Shown in pieces: positions 4,165 to 37,131 of a DNA stretch of 64,000 nt. Made by a program: the position numbers and the translations under genes. The DNA is taken from NCBI GenBank assembly GCA_944363565.1, contig CALVUI010000002.1, positions 270,408-334,407 on the forward strand, read 5' to 3'. Source of the stretch: an uncultured Bacilli bacterium. Lineage in GTDB: Bacteria; Bacillota_I; Bacilli_A; RFN20; CAG-826. The notes below the pieces were generated by a model. It was given only the letters and a program-made list of their open reading frames with translations, had not been told where the DNA came from and ran no database searches. The stretch's first letter is position 1. The number at the start of each line of letters is the position of its first letter.

Positions 4165-4170
4165 GTTCGG

Positions 4171-4252
4171 GCCATCGCGAGGAGAAGAGAGTGAACCGGG
4201 TCAGGCGGGGAACCGAGCAGCCCTAAGCCCCCTTCCCCTGTGCGGTGGTTTT
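4171..4252 (+). ncRNA. ffs: Signal recognition particle RNA (4.5S-type, small)
   Basis: The apical domain IV signature is present: GTGAACCGGGTCAGG, a three-base-pair stem CGG/CCG capped by a GGAA tetraloop, then GAGCAGCC and TAAGC. The CGG/CCG pair replaces the common TCC/GGA by compensatory change, which argues for a real RNA. The 5' arm GCCATCGCGAGGAG pairs with the 3' arm CCCCTGTGCGGTGGT, closing a rod of about 80 nt like the short SRP RNAs of mycoplasmas. A TTTTGTTT tail follows, so the molecule may act as its own terminator. It would bind Ffh and FtsY for membrane-protein targeting. Bacilli usually keep this gene between tadA and dnaX; here it precedes tadA. The ends are approximate. Confidence 0.85.
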
Positions 4253-4268
4253 GTTTACTCTAGTCGAC

Positions 4269-33485: not shown

Positions 33486-34346
33486 ATGGCCAATCTCCTT
33501 TATGCCGGAAACGACAAGATGTTCGACGGTATCCTCTCGAGCTTGCTTTCGATCGCTTCCAATACGACCCGCGGACTCGATGTCATCATTCTGACCGCCG
33601 ACTTCACCGAGATCCGGGAGGATTACCGCCCGATCGACGAAAGGATGCGGGTATTCTTGGAACGGGTCCTCCAGTTCTATTGCTCGACCAGCACGGTCCG
33701 TCTCGTCGACCTCGGGGAGGTCGTCAAAAAAGACCTCGCGGATAGCAAGAACAAGAAGAACCGTTTTTCGCCTTACGCCGTCCTCCGTCTATATCTGGAC
33801 TCCATAGAAGACCTGCCCGATCGGATACTCTATTTAGACACCGATACCTTGGCCAAAGGGGACATTTCCCCTTTATATGACCTCGATTTGCGGGGAAATT
33901 ACATCGGGATGGCCCTCGATGCCGTCGGTTCGATCTGGCTGACGCCGGAATATTGCAATTCCGGGGTCTTGCTCATGGACTATGGGAAGATCAGGCAGAG
34001 CAACCTCTTGGAATTATGCCGTAACCTGGTCAAAACCCAGTTCATGTTCATGCCCGACCAAACGGCCCTCAATACCCTCTTCGACGACAAGATCTACTTC
34101 CTGCCCCGGGAATACAATGAGCAAAAGAAAACGCAGGAGAACACCTTGATCAGGCACTTCTGCGACGTCATGCATCTCTTCCCGATCCTCCATGTCGACA
34201 AGGTCAAGCAATGGGATGTCGAACGGGTCCATAGCGTCCTCAAGGAGCACGCCTTCGACGCCGCCCTCGAGACCTATTTGGAATTGAAGAATCTCTATTT
34301 GGACCACAAGGATCCGGAGGAGGCTTTGATCCGTGGCTACCATTAA
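33486..34346 (+). CDS. GT8 glycosyltransferase (LgtC/GspA-like)
   Basis: 286 residues of the GT8 retaining-transferase family. Typical segments: MANLLYAGNDKMFDGILSSL at the N terminus, the metal-binding DxD in ILYLDTDTL, YCNSGVLLMD, and MPDQTALNTLF. The C terminus lacks an obvious membrane helix. GT8 enzymes add glucose or galactose to surface glycans or protein; the acceptor here is unknown. The start is set by the N-terminal beta strand and the -10 hexamer six bases upstream. It overlaps the next gene by 14 bases. Confidence 0.9.
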   Translation: MANLLYAGNDKMFDGILSSLLSIASNTTRGLDVIILTADFTEIREDYRPIDERMRVFLERVLQFYCSTSTVRLVDLGEVVKKDLADSKNKKNRFSPYAVLRLYLDSIEDLPDRILYLDTDTLAKGDISPLYDLDLRGNYIGMALDAVGSIWLTPEYCNSGVLLMDYGKIRQSNLLELCRNLVKTQFMFMPDQTALNTLFDDKIYFLPREYNEQKKTQENTLIRHFCDVMHLFPILHVDKVKQWDVERVHSVLKEHAFDAALETYLELKNLYLDHKDPEEALIRGYH

Positions 34347-34851
34347 AGAACTAAAGGAGCCCCTTAGGTTATTCTTGGAAGAAAGGGATTGGCTCCGTTT
34401 CAATAGCAAGTCGAGTCTCGCCAAGACCCTCTTCATCGAGTGCGGGGAACTTTCGGAATCCTTCTTTGACCAAGACGAAGAAGGGACCAGGGAAGAGGTC
34501 GGGGACGTCTATAGCGCCCTCCTGCAAATCGACATGCTCCGGGAAAAGGAAACGGGGCAGGGCCTAAGCGACGAGGAACTGAATCGTTACCTGGAGAAGG
34601 CGGAAATCCCCTTCTCGGATAAGGAGTTGGTCCGCTCCCTTTTGATCAAGAGCGCCGCCCTCCTCCAAAACGCTCTCAGCGAAGAGTCCTACTATTCTCT
34701 ATATAAAGAATGTCTTTCCCTCTTCTATGCCTTGCTGCTGAAGAAGGGGTATGACGGAAAGACCTGCCTTTTGGAAAAACTCAAGAAGACGGCCGCCCAT
34801 TACCCGGTCGCCCTCTGCAAAGGCAAGGCCACCAAGTACACCGACCTATAA
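34333..34851 (+). CDS. MazG/dCTPase-like nucleotide pyrophosphohydrolase
   Basis: 172 residues, all-alpha. The N-terminal 70 resemble dCTP pyrophosphatase (RS21-C6/MazG superfamily): FLEERDWLRFNSKSSLAKTLFIECGELSE, then an EEVGDVYSALLQ helix, giving the ExxE and ExxD metal ligands. The C-terminal 100 residues are an unassigned helical extension. It would clean abnormal or excess nucleoside triphosphates. The start is a GTG inside the GT8 gene with AGGAGG ahead, so translation is coupled. Family assignment is good, substrate unknown. Confidence 0.75.
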   Translation: MATIKELKEPLRLFLEERDWLRFNSKSSLAKTLFIECGELSESFFDQDEEGTREEVGDVYSALLQIDMLREKETGQGLSDEELNRYLEKAEIPFSDKELVRSLLIKSAALLQNALSEESYYSLYKECLSLFYALLLKKGYDGKTCLLEKLKKTAAHYPVALCKGKATKYTDL

Positions 34852-34877
34852 ACAAAAACCTCCCCTTGGAGGGGAGG
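34852..34877 (-). terminator. Minus-strand terminator of the 38-codon gene
   Basis: Read on the minus strand: stem CCTCCCCT/AGGGGAGG, then TTTTTGTTT. The plus strand has no T-run after the hairpin, so it serves the minus strand only. Confidence 0.8.
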
Positions 34878-34891
34878 CTTACCTTCATTAG

Positions 34892-35008
34892 TTAGCGAAG
34901 GTCGTCTTCCGAGTCATTGAAGATGGGCTTTTCTTGGCTCGCGATCTTCTCTAGGAGATCGCCATAACCCAAGTCCAGTCCACCATACTGTTCTTCGTAC
35001 TGTTCCAT
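34892..35008 (-). CDS. Small acidic protein, 38 residues, unknown
   Basis: A complete small gene in a gap on the minus strand: promoter, Shine-Dalgarno AAAGGATGA about seven bases ahead of the ATG, 38 codons, TAA, and a terminator 14 bases later. The product begins MEQYEEQYGGLDLGYGDLLE and ends in an acidic DSEDDLR; it is Glu/Asp-rich, has no transmembrane segment and few basic residues. No family is recognised. Functions possible for such peptides include adaptor or antagonist of a larger protein. The neighbour on the plus strand upstream is the PIN-domain gene, divergent from it. Confidence 0.65.
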   Translation of the reverse strand: MEQYEEQYGGLDLGYGDLLEKIASQEKPIFNDSEDDLR

Positions 35009-35041
35009 GAGCGGTCATCCTTTCTGCCTTGCGGCGGCCTA

Positions 35042-35069
35042 AATATAAGGGTTATGGAAGATCAATCAA
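35042..35069 (-). promoter_or_regulatory. Promoter of the 38-codon gene
   Basis: On the minus strand: -35 TTGATT (35064-35069), 16-base spacer, -10 TATATT (35042-35047). Confidence 0.65.
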
Positions 35070-35081
35070 GGCCACTTTCCA

Positions 35082-35095
35082 TGTAAACGTTTTCA
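35082..35095 (+). promoter_or_regulatory. cre-like operator 1
   Basis: TGTAAACGTTTTCA matches the CcpA/LacI-family catabolite-responsive consensus TGWAANCGNTNWCA at every defined position. It lies just upstream of the -35 of the 38-codon gene and within the control region of the PIN gene. Confidence 0.5.
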
Positions 35096-35161
35096 GTAAG
35101 GGGTTTCAGAAAGGGCTTTCACGAAAATAGCCGATAAACCCTAAGGAATTTATGGTTTATA

Positions 35162-35175
35162 GGAAAGCGTTTTCA
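35162..35175 (+). promoter_or_regulatory. cre-like operator 2
   Basis: GGAAAGCGTTTTCA, one mismatch from the same consensus. Shares CGTTTTCA with the sites at 35082 and 35194. Confidence 0.4.
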
Positions 35176-35280: not shown

Positions 35281-35296
35281 GGTTTCAAAGGAAACC
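35281..35296 (+). other. Hairpin between Shine-Dalgarno and start codon of the PIN gene
   Basis: Stem GGTTTC/GAAACC with loop AAAG. The AAAGGAGG at 35275-35282 is too far (25 bases) from the ATG unless this hairpin folds, which brings them to about 11 bases; folding also takes up its last two G. Confidence 0.4.
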
Positions 35297-35307
35297 AAAT
35301 AAACACT

Positions 35308-37131
35308 ATGTACAGCGACGAGAACAAACCCTCGGCCCTAGCCCTGATCCTCAATCATTACGACTACGTGGTCCTGGATACTTGTTCCCTGATGGAAGAT
35401 TCGTTCACCGAGTGGCTGGATACCCTCAGCCGTTCAAAGGAATACTGGAACGAAGGCTTGCAGATCTACGTCCCCGAAGCCTGCATGGTAGAACTGAAAA
35501 AGCATGCCGAGGACAAAAGTAAGGAAAACATCGCCAAACGCGTGGCTGCCAAAAGGGCTCTGAAGATCGTGAACCGGGCCCTGGGTGCCATTTGGCCGAA
35601 TCGTTGGCGGAAGGTCTTGACCCTCCTAAAGGACGAAACGGAACCGACCTTCGCCGACAACCAGATCTACAACTTCGTCAACCGTTACCGGATGAACAAA
35701 TCGATCCTCGTCATAACCCAAGACAAGACCTTGGCTTATGAGCTCAGGGAACAGAACCACCTGGTATCGCAAAAAGGGCGCCTGGTCGACGTTAGCAAAA
35801 TCACCGACAAGGGTGATTTGATCACCAACAAAGGGGAGAAGCCCTTGGACCGCAATCGCAGCCAACGGCCTCAAAAACCCATGCAAAAGGCCTCTGAAGA
35901 TAACAATAAAGGCTTCAGGAAGCCCGAGGGGAGACGCAACGAGGACCCGATTGTCCGCAATGACATGCGCCTTTCCTGCAACCTCGATAATCCCAACTAT
36001 CCGGCCAAGCGGAAGGTCTCCGACATCAAGGAACAGATCTCCCTCCTCAAGGCCCTTCCTAGCGACAAGCTTTCCAAGATGAGCTTGGCCTTCACCCTCG
36101 AAGACCTTGAAAAGAGGATCAAGGGCCTTGGCCCCGTCGAAGAGGAAAGCAAGCCCGTTGAGGCCAAGAAGGTCGAACCCAAATCGGAACAATCCAAGAA
36201 GGAAGATAGGCCTTCCTTCAAATCCGATCGCCCCAAGGCCCTCGGCTCCGGCAAGACCGTCTATGACGCGGTCAAGAGCTACTGCAACGCCCGCGGCGTC
36301 ATCGTCCGTGACGATTCGGTTCCCTATGTCGCCATGGTCCATGGTCCCAGCGACATCACCGAATCGGTCCTCAAGGACTTCGTCTCCAAGGTCCCGGCCA
36401 ATGAGAGGATCGACTTCACGGGTGCCATCGCCGGCCTCCCGATCGCCCTCCGTTCGGGCGGTAAATACATCGATGCCTATAACCCTGTTGCCCTTCTAAA
36501 CGAAGCGAAGCCGGCTGTAGGCCAAAGCCCGAAAGCCCCGCAGAAAGCCGAGCAACCGAAGGCTACGGAAGTGAAAAAGGCCGTCGAACCGAAAGCCGAA
36601 CAGCCCAAAGCTCCGGTCGCGAAGAAGGCCGAACAACCTAAGGCCAAGCCGGAAAACCCGGAACCCAAGCCCCAAAAGGCCGAGAAGAAGGTCGTCATCA
36701 AAAACGGTGAGGACATCGAGGTCAAGGGCAGCAACCGCAAGGAAGTCCAAGCCACTCCACGGGCCGTCGTGCCCAAGGGCGCGACCCTGATCGTCGGCGT
36801 GCCGGAATCCCCGCGGGTCGCGGCCGCCATCGAAAAGAAATCCAAGCGCCTTGATACCCCGAAGACCACCGAGGTCGTAAAGCCGGCTACCGCCAAGCGG
36901 GGACCCAAGCCCAAGGCCGACAGTTCCTTGCTCCAGGAAGCCAAGAAGGCCGACATCCGCCTCCAGGCCAACCTCAACAACCCGACCTTCCCGGCCGAGT
37001 CCGCCATCAAGGACATCGATGCCCAGCTCACCCGCCTCCATCAGTTGACCCCTTATGAGAGGAGTTCGCTGAAGCTTGGACTAAGGGAGCTGAAAAACCG
37101 GAAGACGGAAATCCAAAACAAAAAGACCTAG
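35308..37131 (+). CDS. Large PIN-domain protein with duplicated C-terminal module
   Basis: 607 residues in an unfamiliar arrangement. Residues 15-175 are a PIN-type RNase domain with acidic residues Asp24 (VVLDTCSLM), Asp117 (FADNQ) and Asp139 (TQDKTLA). A module of about 55 residues occurs twice, near 219-275 and 549-605, sharing the pattern D(M/I)RL-x2-NL-x-NP-x-(Y/F)PA and later DI-x2-Q. Between them are a globular domain (about 315-390, KTVYDAVKSYCNARG) and a Lys/Pro/Ala/Gln-rich linker with QPKA-type repeats. It is basic overall, suiting RNA binding. There is no antitoxin partner of usual type. The promoter region is unusually elaborate. Confidence 0.75.
   Translation: MYSDENKPSALALILNHYDYVVLDTCSLMEDSFTEWLDTLSRSKEYWNEGLQIYVPEACMVELKKHAEDKSKENIAKRVAAKRALKIVNRALGAIWPNRWRKVLTLLKDETEPTFADNQIYNFVNRYRMNKSILVITQDKTLAYELREQNHLVSQKGRLVDVSKITDKGDLITNKGEKPLDRNRSQRPQKPMQKASEDNNKGFRKPEGRRNEDPIVRNDMRLSCNLDNPNYPAKRKVSDIKEQISLLKALPSDKLSKMSLAFTLEDLEKRIKGLGPVEEESKPVEAKKVEPKSEQSKKEDRPSFKSDRPKALGSGKTVYDAVKSYCNARGVIVRDDSVPYVAMVHGPSDITESVLKDFVSKVPANERIDFTGAIAGLPIALRSGGKYIDAYNPVALLNEAKPAVGQSPKAPQKAEQPKATEVKKAVEPKAEQPKAPVAKKAEQPKAKPENPEPKPQKAEKKVVIKNGEDIEVKGSNRKEVQATPRAVVPKGATLIVGVPESPRVAAAIEKKSKRLDTPKTTEVVKPATAKRGPKPKADSSLLQEAKKADIRLQANLNNPTFPAESAIKDIDAQLTRLHQLTPYERSSLKLGLRELKNRKTEIQNKKT

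Follow-up and report, generated by a model that had tools for sequence, protein, structure and literature searches.

SR1P of Bacillus subtilis is a protein of 39 amino acids that binds GapA; its RNA is about 205 nt long, is repressed by CcpN and CcpA, and SR1P is confined to Bacillales (PMC8152036). In the same species, cre boxes located upstream of the -35 box usually activate transcription in a manner that depends on the helix face, as in CcpA-activated promoters such as that of ackA, where a further conserved upstream element is found (PMC3463425). The small-protein families of gut bacteria and metagenomes (sORFdb, PMC11796252) are based on conserved open reading frames near or under 50 codons, which are missed by usual annotation.

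Here, we describe a 38-codon gene from an uncultured Bacilli bacterium, located in a contiguous stretch of 64,000 nucleotides that was analysed as a whole (the window). Its short, apparently monocistronic transcript, the size of its protein and its putatively carbon-linked control resemble SR1/SR1P. In contrast to SR1P, the gene is preceded by a phased multi-site array and its transcript starts with a co-varying hairpin; the two systems are likened by their working, and homology is not claimed. With ackA-type promoters the locus shares cre-like palindromes upstream of the -35 box and an additional conserved upstream element. It differs from them by two to three abutting units with a 13-bp period, a distal unit and positions that are kept in two genera, and its regulator is a candidate. 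Like the sORFdb families, compared here by description only, it is a conserved, very short frame of the kind that annotation tends to miss but, unlike these, it lacks a Pfam or NCBIfam match.

The 38-codon gene and its surroundings

The open reading frame occupies positions 34892-35008 of the minus strand, with the ATG start codon at 35008 and a TAA stop codon ending at 34892. The encoded protein, MEQYEEQYGGLDLGYGDLLEKIASQEKPIFNDSEDDLR, is acidic (11 Asp and Glu versus 3 Lys and Arg). A Shine-Dalgarno sequence, AGAAAGGA, is located 9 nt 5' of the ATG (35018-35025, minus strand), as is also the case for the homologues that were read. In the promoter scan, a -10 box TATATT (35042-35047, minus strand) and a -35 box TTGATT (35064-35069, minus strand) were found with a spacer of 16 bases; TATATT is present in most of 36 family loci, and 16 is the best-scoring spacing in most of them. 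The stem of an intrinsic terminator (34856-34880, minus strand) has its T-run, TTTTTGTTT, on the minus strand only, and a similar stem with a T-run follows nearly all homologues. Judged by promoter and terminator, the gene is presumably the only one of its transcription unit. The original prediction of a complete small protein gene had named the promoter pair with its spacing, the Shine-Dalgarno sequence, the 38 codons ending in TAA, the strand-specific terminator and the acidic character of the peptide. Each of these elements is present. The prediction did not include the array of operator units at 35083-35120, the distal unit at 35163-35174 or the hairpin with which the transcript begins.

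By themselves, the promoter and terminator signals barely exceed chance (one promoter-like site where 0.7 are expected, and five terminator-like sites where 2.8 are), and an open reading frame of 38 codons is ordinary. The frame is more than a chance event because it is conserved: close relatives share the order of promoter, Shine-Dalgarno sequence, reading frame and terminator together with frame-specific selection.

The small gene and a MazG-like gene (34333-34851, plus strand) converge; on its other side, a PIN-domain gene (35308-37131, plus strand; Pfam PIN_4, E 7e-5) is transcribed divergently. No Pfam or NCBIfam match was obtained for the MazG-like protein of 172 residues. Its full-length relatives were found only in genomes G007 and G004, while in other relatives the N-terminal part is aligned, sometimes together with the C-terminal 30 residues; an inserted middle region is suggested. 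The PIN_4 protein carries a long low-complexity tail of about 400 residues rich in Lys, Pro and Glu. A hairpin, GGTTTCAAAGGAAACC (35281-35296, plus strand), overlaps the Shine-Dalgarno sequence of the PIN gene at 35308 and could limit its translation. In about a dozen loci of the genus, the small gene is flanked divergently by the PIN gene, and in about 13 a gene of the XRE family lies 3' of it; other copies adjoin genes for an MFS-like transporter or a lipoprotein, or still others, the functions being read from sequence. In the window, Rfam matched only the bacterial small SRP RNA (RF00169, 54.8 bits), at 4165-4259 of the plus strand.

Homologues and selection on the reading frame

When 61 related genomes were searched with the peptide, clear matches appeared within the genus, the best with E values of 2.4e-11 and 4.9e-7. 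Of the 37 genomes of the genus, about 18 contained the family according to a six-member profile; a 24-member profile raised this to 20 and added 13 genomes of a second genus from the same family. Other genera yielded no convincing member, and the searches included an order-wide one. Thirty distinct peptides were obtained from the 36 loci read. Around 33 uncultured gut-type Bacilli species keep the acidic protein, the hairpin at the 5' end of the mRNA and the evenly spaced upstream sites. A search of viral contigs revealed no true homologue; the sole viral match (L166) lies by chance within a long unrelated reading frame, and a phage origin was rejected.

Several genomes have two copies of the gene, which are about 400 bp apart in three cases. 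These tandem duplicates (L158 and L159 in G116 and G123, and G122:C1 at about 121.4-122.0 kb) each possess their own three-unit array and 5' hairpin. Another subfamily of second copies (L062-L064, L070 and L066) ends with YIPDPELQ or similar, is located beside an MFS-like transporter and has a TTCGATG-like variant of the conserved upstream element.

As checks of the prediction, a dN/dS test and a search for the frame in related genomes had been put forward, and both speak for it. Besides the frame being kept in both genera, purifying selection is evident from a pooled dN/dS of 0.25 (pS 0.32, pN 0.10; nine independent pairs; Fisher p 1.7e-15), and dN/dS is 0.12 between the gene in the window and its closest relative. 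Substitutions at codon positions 1, 2 and 3 amount to 54, 34 and 110, respectively (eleven pairs; p 6e-11). The synonymous excess and the codon-position bias indicate that the frame encodes a protein under selection. Thus, homologues in two genera and codon selection support the assignment as a complete small protein gene, and the 38-codon frame is almost certainly a real, previously unnamed protein-coding gene.

Protein family

Proteins of the family comprise 35-55 residues and always carry a negative net charge (-3 to -15; 36 loci). A core of the form [YF]x3Lx2[ILV][AS] is found in 33 of the 36 loci and precedes P-I/L-F, or a variant thereof, and an acidic run; the family pattern is Y-x3-L-x2-I-A-x2-G/x-P-I/L-F and then Asp or Glu. 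Neither Pfam and NCBIfam nor the PDB yielded a profile match, and PHROG gave one weak match of unknown function (E 0.0056). Strings of the peptide motif did not occur in the literature searched. In a low-confidence AlphaFold2 model (pLDDT 71, pTM 0.35), residues 15-23 form a central helix, two short helices are located at the ends, and there is no compact fold. To read 'QGPLF' as a sliding-clamp (QxxLF-like) or SSB-tail motif is speculative, since the first residue is not conserved and the proline is nearly constant. We see an even chance that the protein acts as a helix-plus-motif binder that modulates a partner protein. The family is new to Pfam, NCBIfam and the PDB; its kind, a carbon-regulated small modulator, is known.

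Operator array upstream of the promoter

The upstream regions of the family share 12-bp palindromes, GWAANNNNTTWC. They form arrays of two to three units exactly 13 bp apart, with a distal unit at 121-122 bp, where distances are counted from the first base of the -10 box to the centre of the unit. In the window, the minus-strand units GAAAACGTTTAC (35083-35094), GAAACCCCTTAC (35096-35107) and GAAAGCCCTTTC (35109-35120) are centred 41, 54 and 67 bp upstream of the -10 box, an exact three-unit match, and the distal unit GAAAACGCTTTC (35163-35174, minus strand) is centred at 121 bp. Upstream of the array lies a conserved element, TTTATCG (35132-35138, minus strand). The centre of the proximal unit lies at 40-42 bp in 25 of the 36 loci, and the neighbouring units follow 13 bp further out. 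In several other loci the row is about 10 bp closer, corresponding to one helical turn; the -10 box is uncertain for some (the less certain assignments are L088, L060, L107, L157, L158b and L159b).

Elsewhere in the same loci, units at the same cut-off occur at a background of 1.9 per kb. Two abutting units were found at 11 loci in the 37 genomes, and nine of these are in front of the small gene; at the remaining two, no such small gene was seen. Members in G033 and G013, missed by the first profile, were found via the promoter pattern. In 279 genomes, the combination of TTTATCG with a unit pointed to acidic small genes of the second genus that were new; the matches L111, L113, L115 and L120 are not members of the family. 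Among 395 Bacilli genomes, the three-unit pattern occurs at five family sites in G000, G012, G029 and G122 (two copies in the last), and two AT-rich three-unit matches in G543 and G162 were taken as chance. CodY boxes were considered, because a TTTCWGAAA core arises where units abut, but the GTAA/TTAC variants and the flanks fit GWAANNNNTTWC better. Boxes for LexA, NrdR and CtsR fit poorly by eye. Its phasing makes the array an unusual variant.

Candidate regulator

Thirty-two of the 36 arrays contain a cre-like palindrome with a central CG (of the WTGNNARCGNWWWCAW type) in at least one proximal unit each, including GAAAACGTTTAC in the window; the central CG is often missing from the other, middle units. 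In G000, single TGAAANCGNTTTCA-like sites adjoin genes for a solute-binding lipoprotein and for sugar-transport-like functions (read by eye), and one such site is located directly 5' of a gene of the LacI family. A perfect palindrome, TGAAAACGTTTTCA (G000:C1:210790-210803, L099), precedes this CcpA-like LacI gene and suggests autoregulation. The best PDB matches of the LacI protein, which the genome encodes at about 210.8 kb of G000:C1, are CcpA structures (E 6e-38), and its best NCBIfam match is ccpA with 177 bits, below the equivalog cut-off of 442. Putative control of the array by a LacI/CcpA-type protein is, in our judgement, probable. Three abutting units 13 bp apart are not usual for CcpA, which counts against this assignment.

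Assuming control of this type, activation is somewhat favoured over repression. The cre-like units are located upstream of the -35 box, and from the rule for B. subtilis (PMC3463425) we infer that a CcpA-like protein would preferably activate here.

Hairpin at the 5' end of the predicted transcript

A short hairpin, GCC-GCAA-GGC (35026-35035, minus strand), is located at the predicted 5' end of the transcript. With only 3 bp it is the weakest copy among the relatives, and this counts against our best explanation for the locus. The hairpin is present in nearly all relatives, its first base follows the -10 box by 5-7 nt in most loci, and its mean folding z-score is -2.0. The sequences of the arms vary widely (for example, GTTCCC/GGGAAC, GCTTTTC/GAAAAGC, GCCTGA/TCAGGC and CGCCTC/GAGGCG). 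Pairing of the arms within a locus is stronger than between loci (mean -7.1 versus -2.6 kcal/mol; arm-swap permutation p 1e-4), a comparison that favours own pairs, because each hairpin was picked as the best of its leader, and in which relatedness was handled by the choice of representatives alone. Independent support for the hairpin is provided by its constant position after the -10 box. Because RNase J1 is stopped in Bacilli by structured 5' ends (PMC3997798), protection of the mRNA is the likely role of the hairpin.

Proposed mechanism and alternatives

Taken as a whole, the best explanation is a catabolite-regulated, stable small mRNA for a partner-modulating acidic protein, to which we assign a probability of roughly 50%. 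In this model, the promoter would respond to carbon supply through a CcpA-like regulator of the LacI family that would sit on one fixed helix face at the units 5' of the -35 box and act jointly with the distal unit; activation is more likely than repression. The 5' hairpin would keep 5' exonuclease from attacking the short mRNA. The protein, presumably consisting of a short amphipathic helix (Y-x3-L-x2-I-A) and the subsequent P-I/L-F-acidic motif, may bind and modulate one partner in the manner of SR1P. Our proposals on the regulator, on the direction of its effect and on a partner protein are inferences. In a bolder version, which we regard as rather improbable, the locus would represent a new type of promoter, in which LacI-type dimers would line up cooperatively in 13-bp steps, keep register with RNA polymerase and connect to a distal site. 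This promoter would serve a single tiny protein, whose P-I/L-F-acidic motif would dock on a central cell machine and so signal carbon status.

As most proteins of the LacI family are repressors, the same gene could be repressed through the array and released by sugar, and a loop could form with the distal unit, which lies 54 bp from the nearest proximal one; this sign of control appears unlikely, because the units lie upstream of the -35 box, off the core promoter and at a near-constant distance, which is the geometry of activating cre boxes (PMC3463425). Alternatively, the array might bind the neighbouring XRE-family regulator, with the small protein as its effector or anti-repressor. The frequent position of an XRE gene 3' of the small gene suggests such a link, but G000, G007 and G004 keep array and gene without an XRE orthologue: homologues there are distant, with 39-40% identity elsewhere in G000 and G007 and the HTH part only in G004, compared with full-length matches of 50% in other species. 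We consider this connection very unlikely.

Equally little probability is given to the small protein being an antitoxin-like partner or inhibitor of the divergent PIN-domain protein. The acidic peptide, the PIN_4 match and the recurrence of the PIN gene as divergent neighbour would be in line with it. An adjacent PIN gene is missing at many members, among them second copies and the copies in the second genus; the small gene is never in an operon with PIN, and the array travels with the small gene rather than with PIN. A type II toxin-antitoxin pair in particular was rejected, since operon-like linkage is lacking: the PIN gene is divergent where adjacent and often absent. A dual-function or purely RNA regulator, in which a short transcript base-pairs and the reading frame is secondary or fortuitous, would account for the short transcript (about 180 nt), its conserved 5' hairpin and its terminator, and dual-function RNAs such as SR1 exist. 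The substitution pattern is, however, that of a protein in this frame. Moreover, the arms of the hairpin co-vary, yet no stretch of loop or tail is conserved as a pairing seed would be, and there is no Rfam match at the small gene at the gathering score. An RNA regulator is an unlikely explanation; in addition to coding, the RNA may still have a second function. The reading as a catabolite-regulated mRNA for a small modulating protein remains the one that we prefer.

Biological significance

Very small genes are largely missing from the annotation of uncultured Bacilli, and the present one is demonstrably real. Its upstream signature is so specific that it can lead to relatives with a diverged peptide. 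That a gene of 38 codons has a multi-operator promoter of its own, fixed in position, implies that the dosage of the small protein matters. Gene and array together offer a direct route to how gut-type Bacilli with small genomes read their carbon supply.
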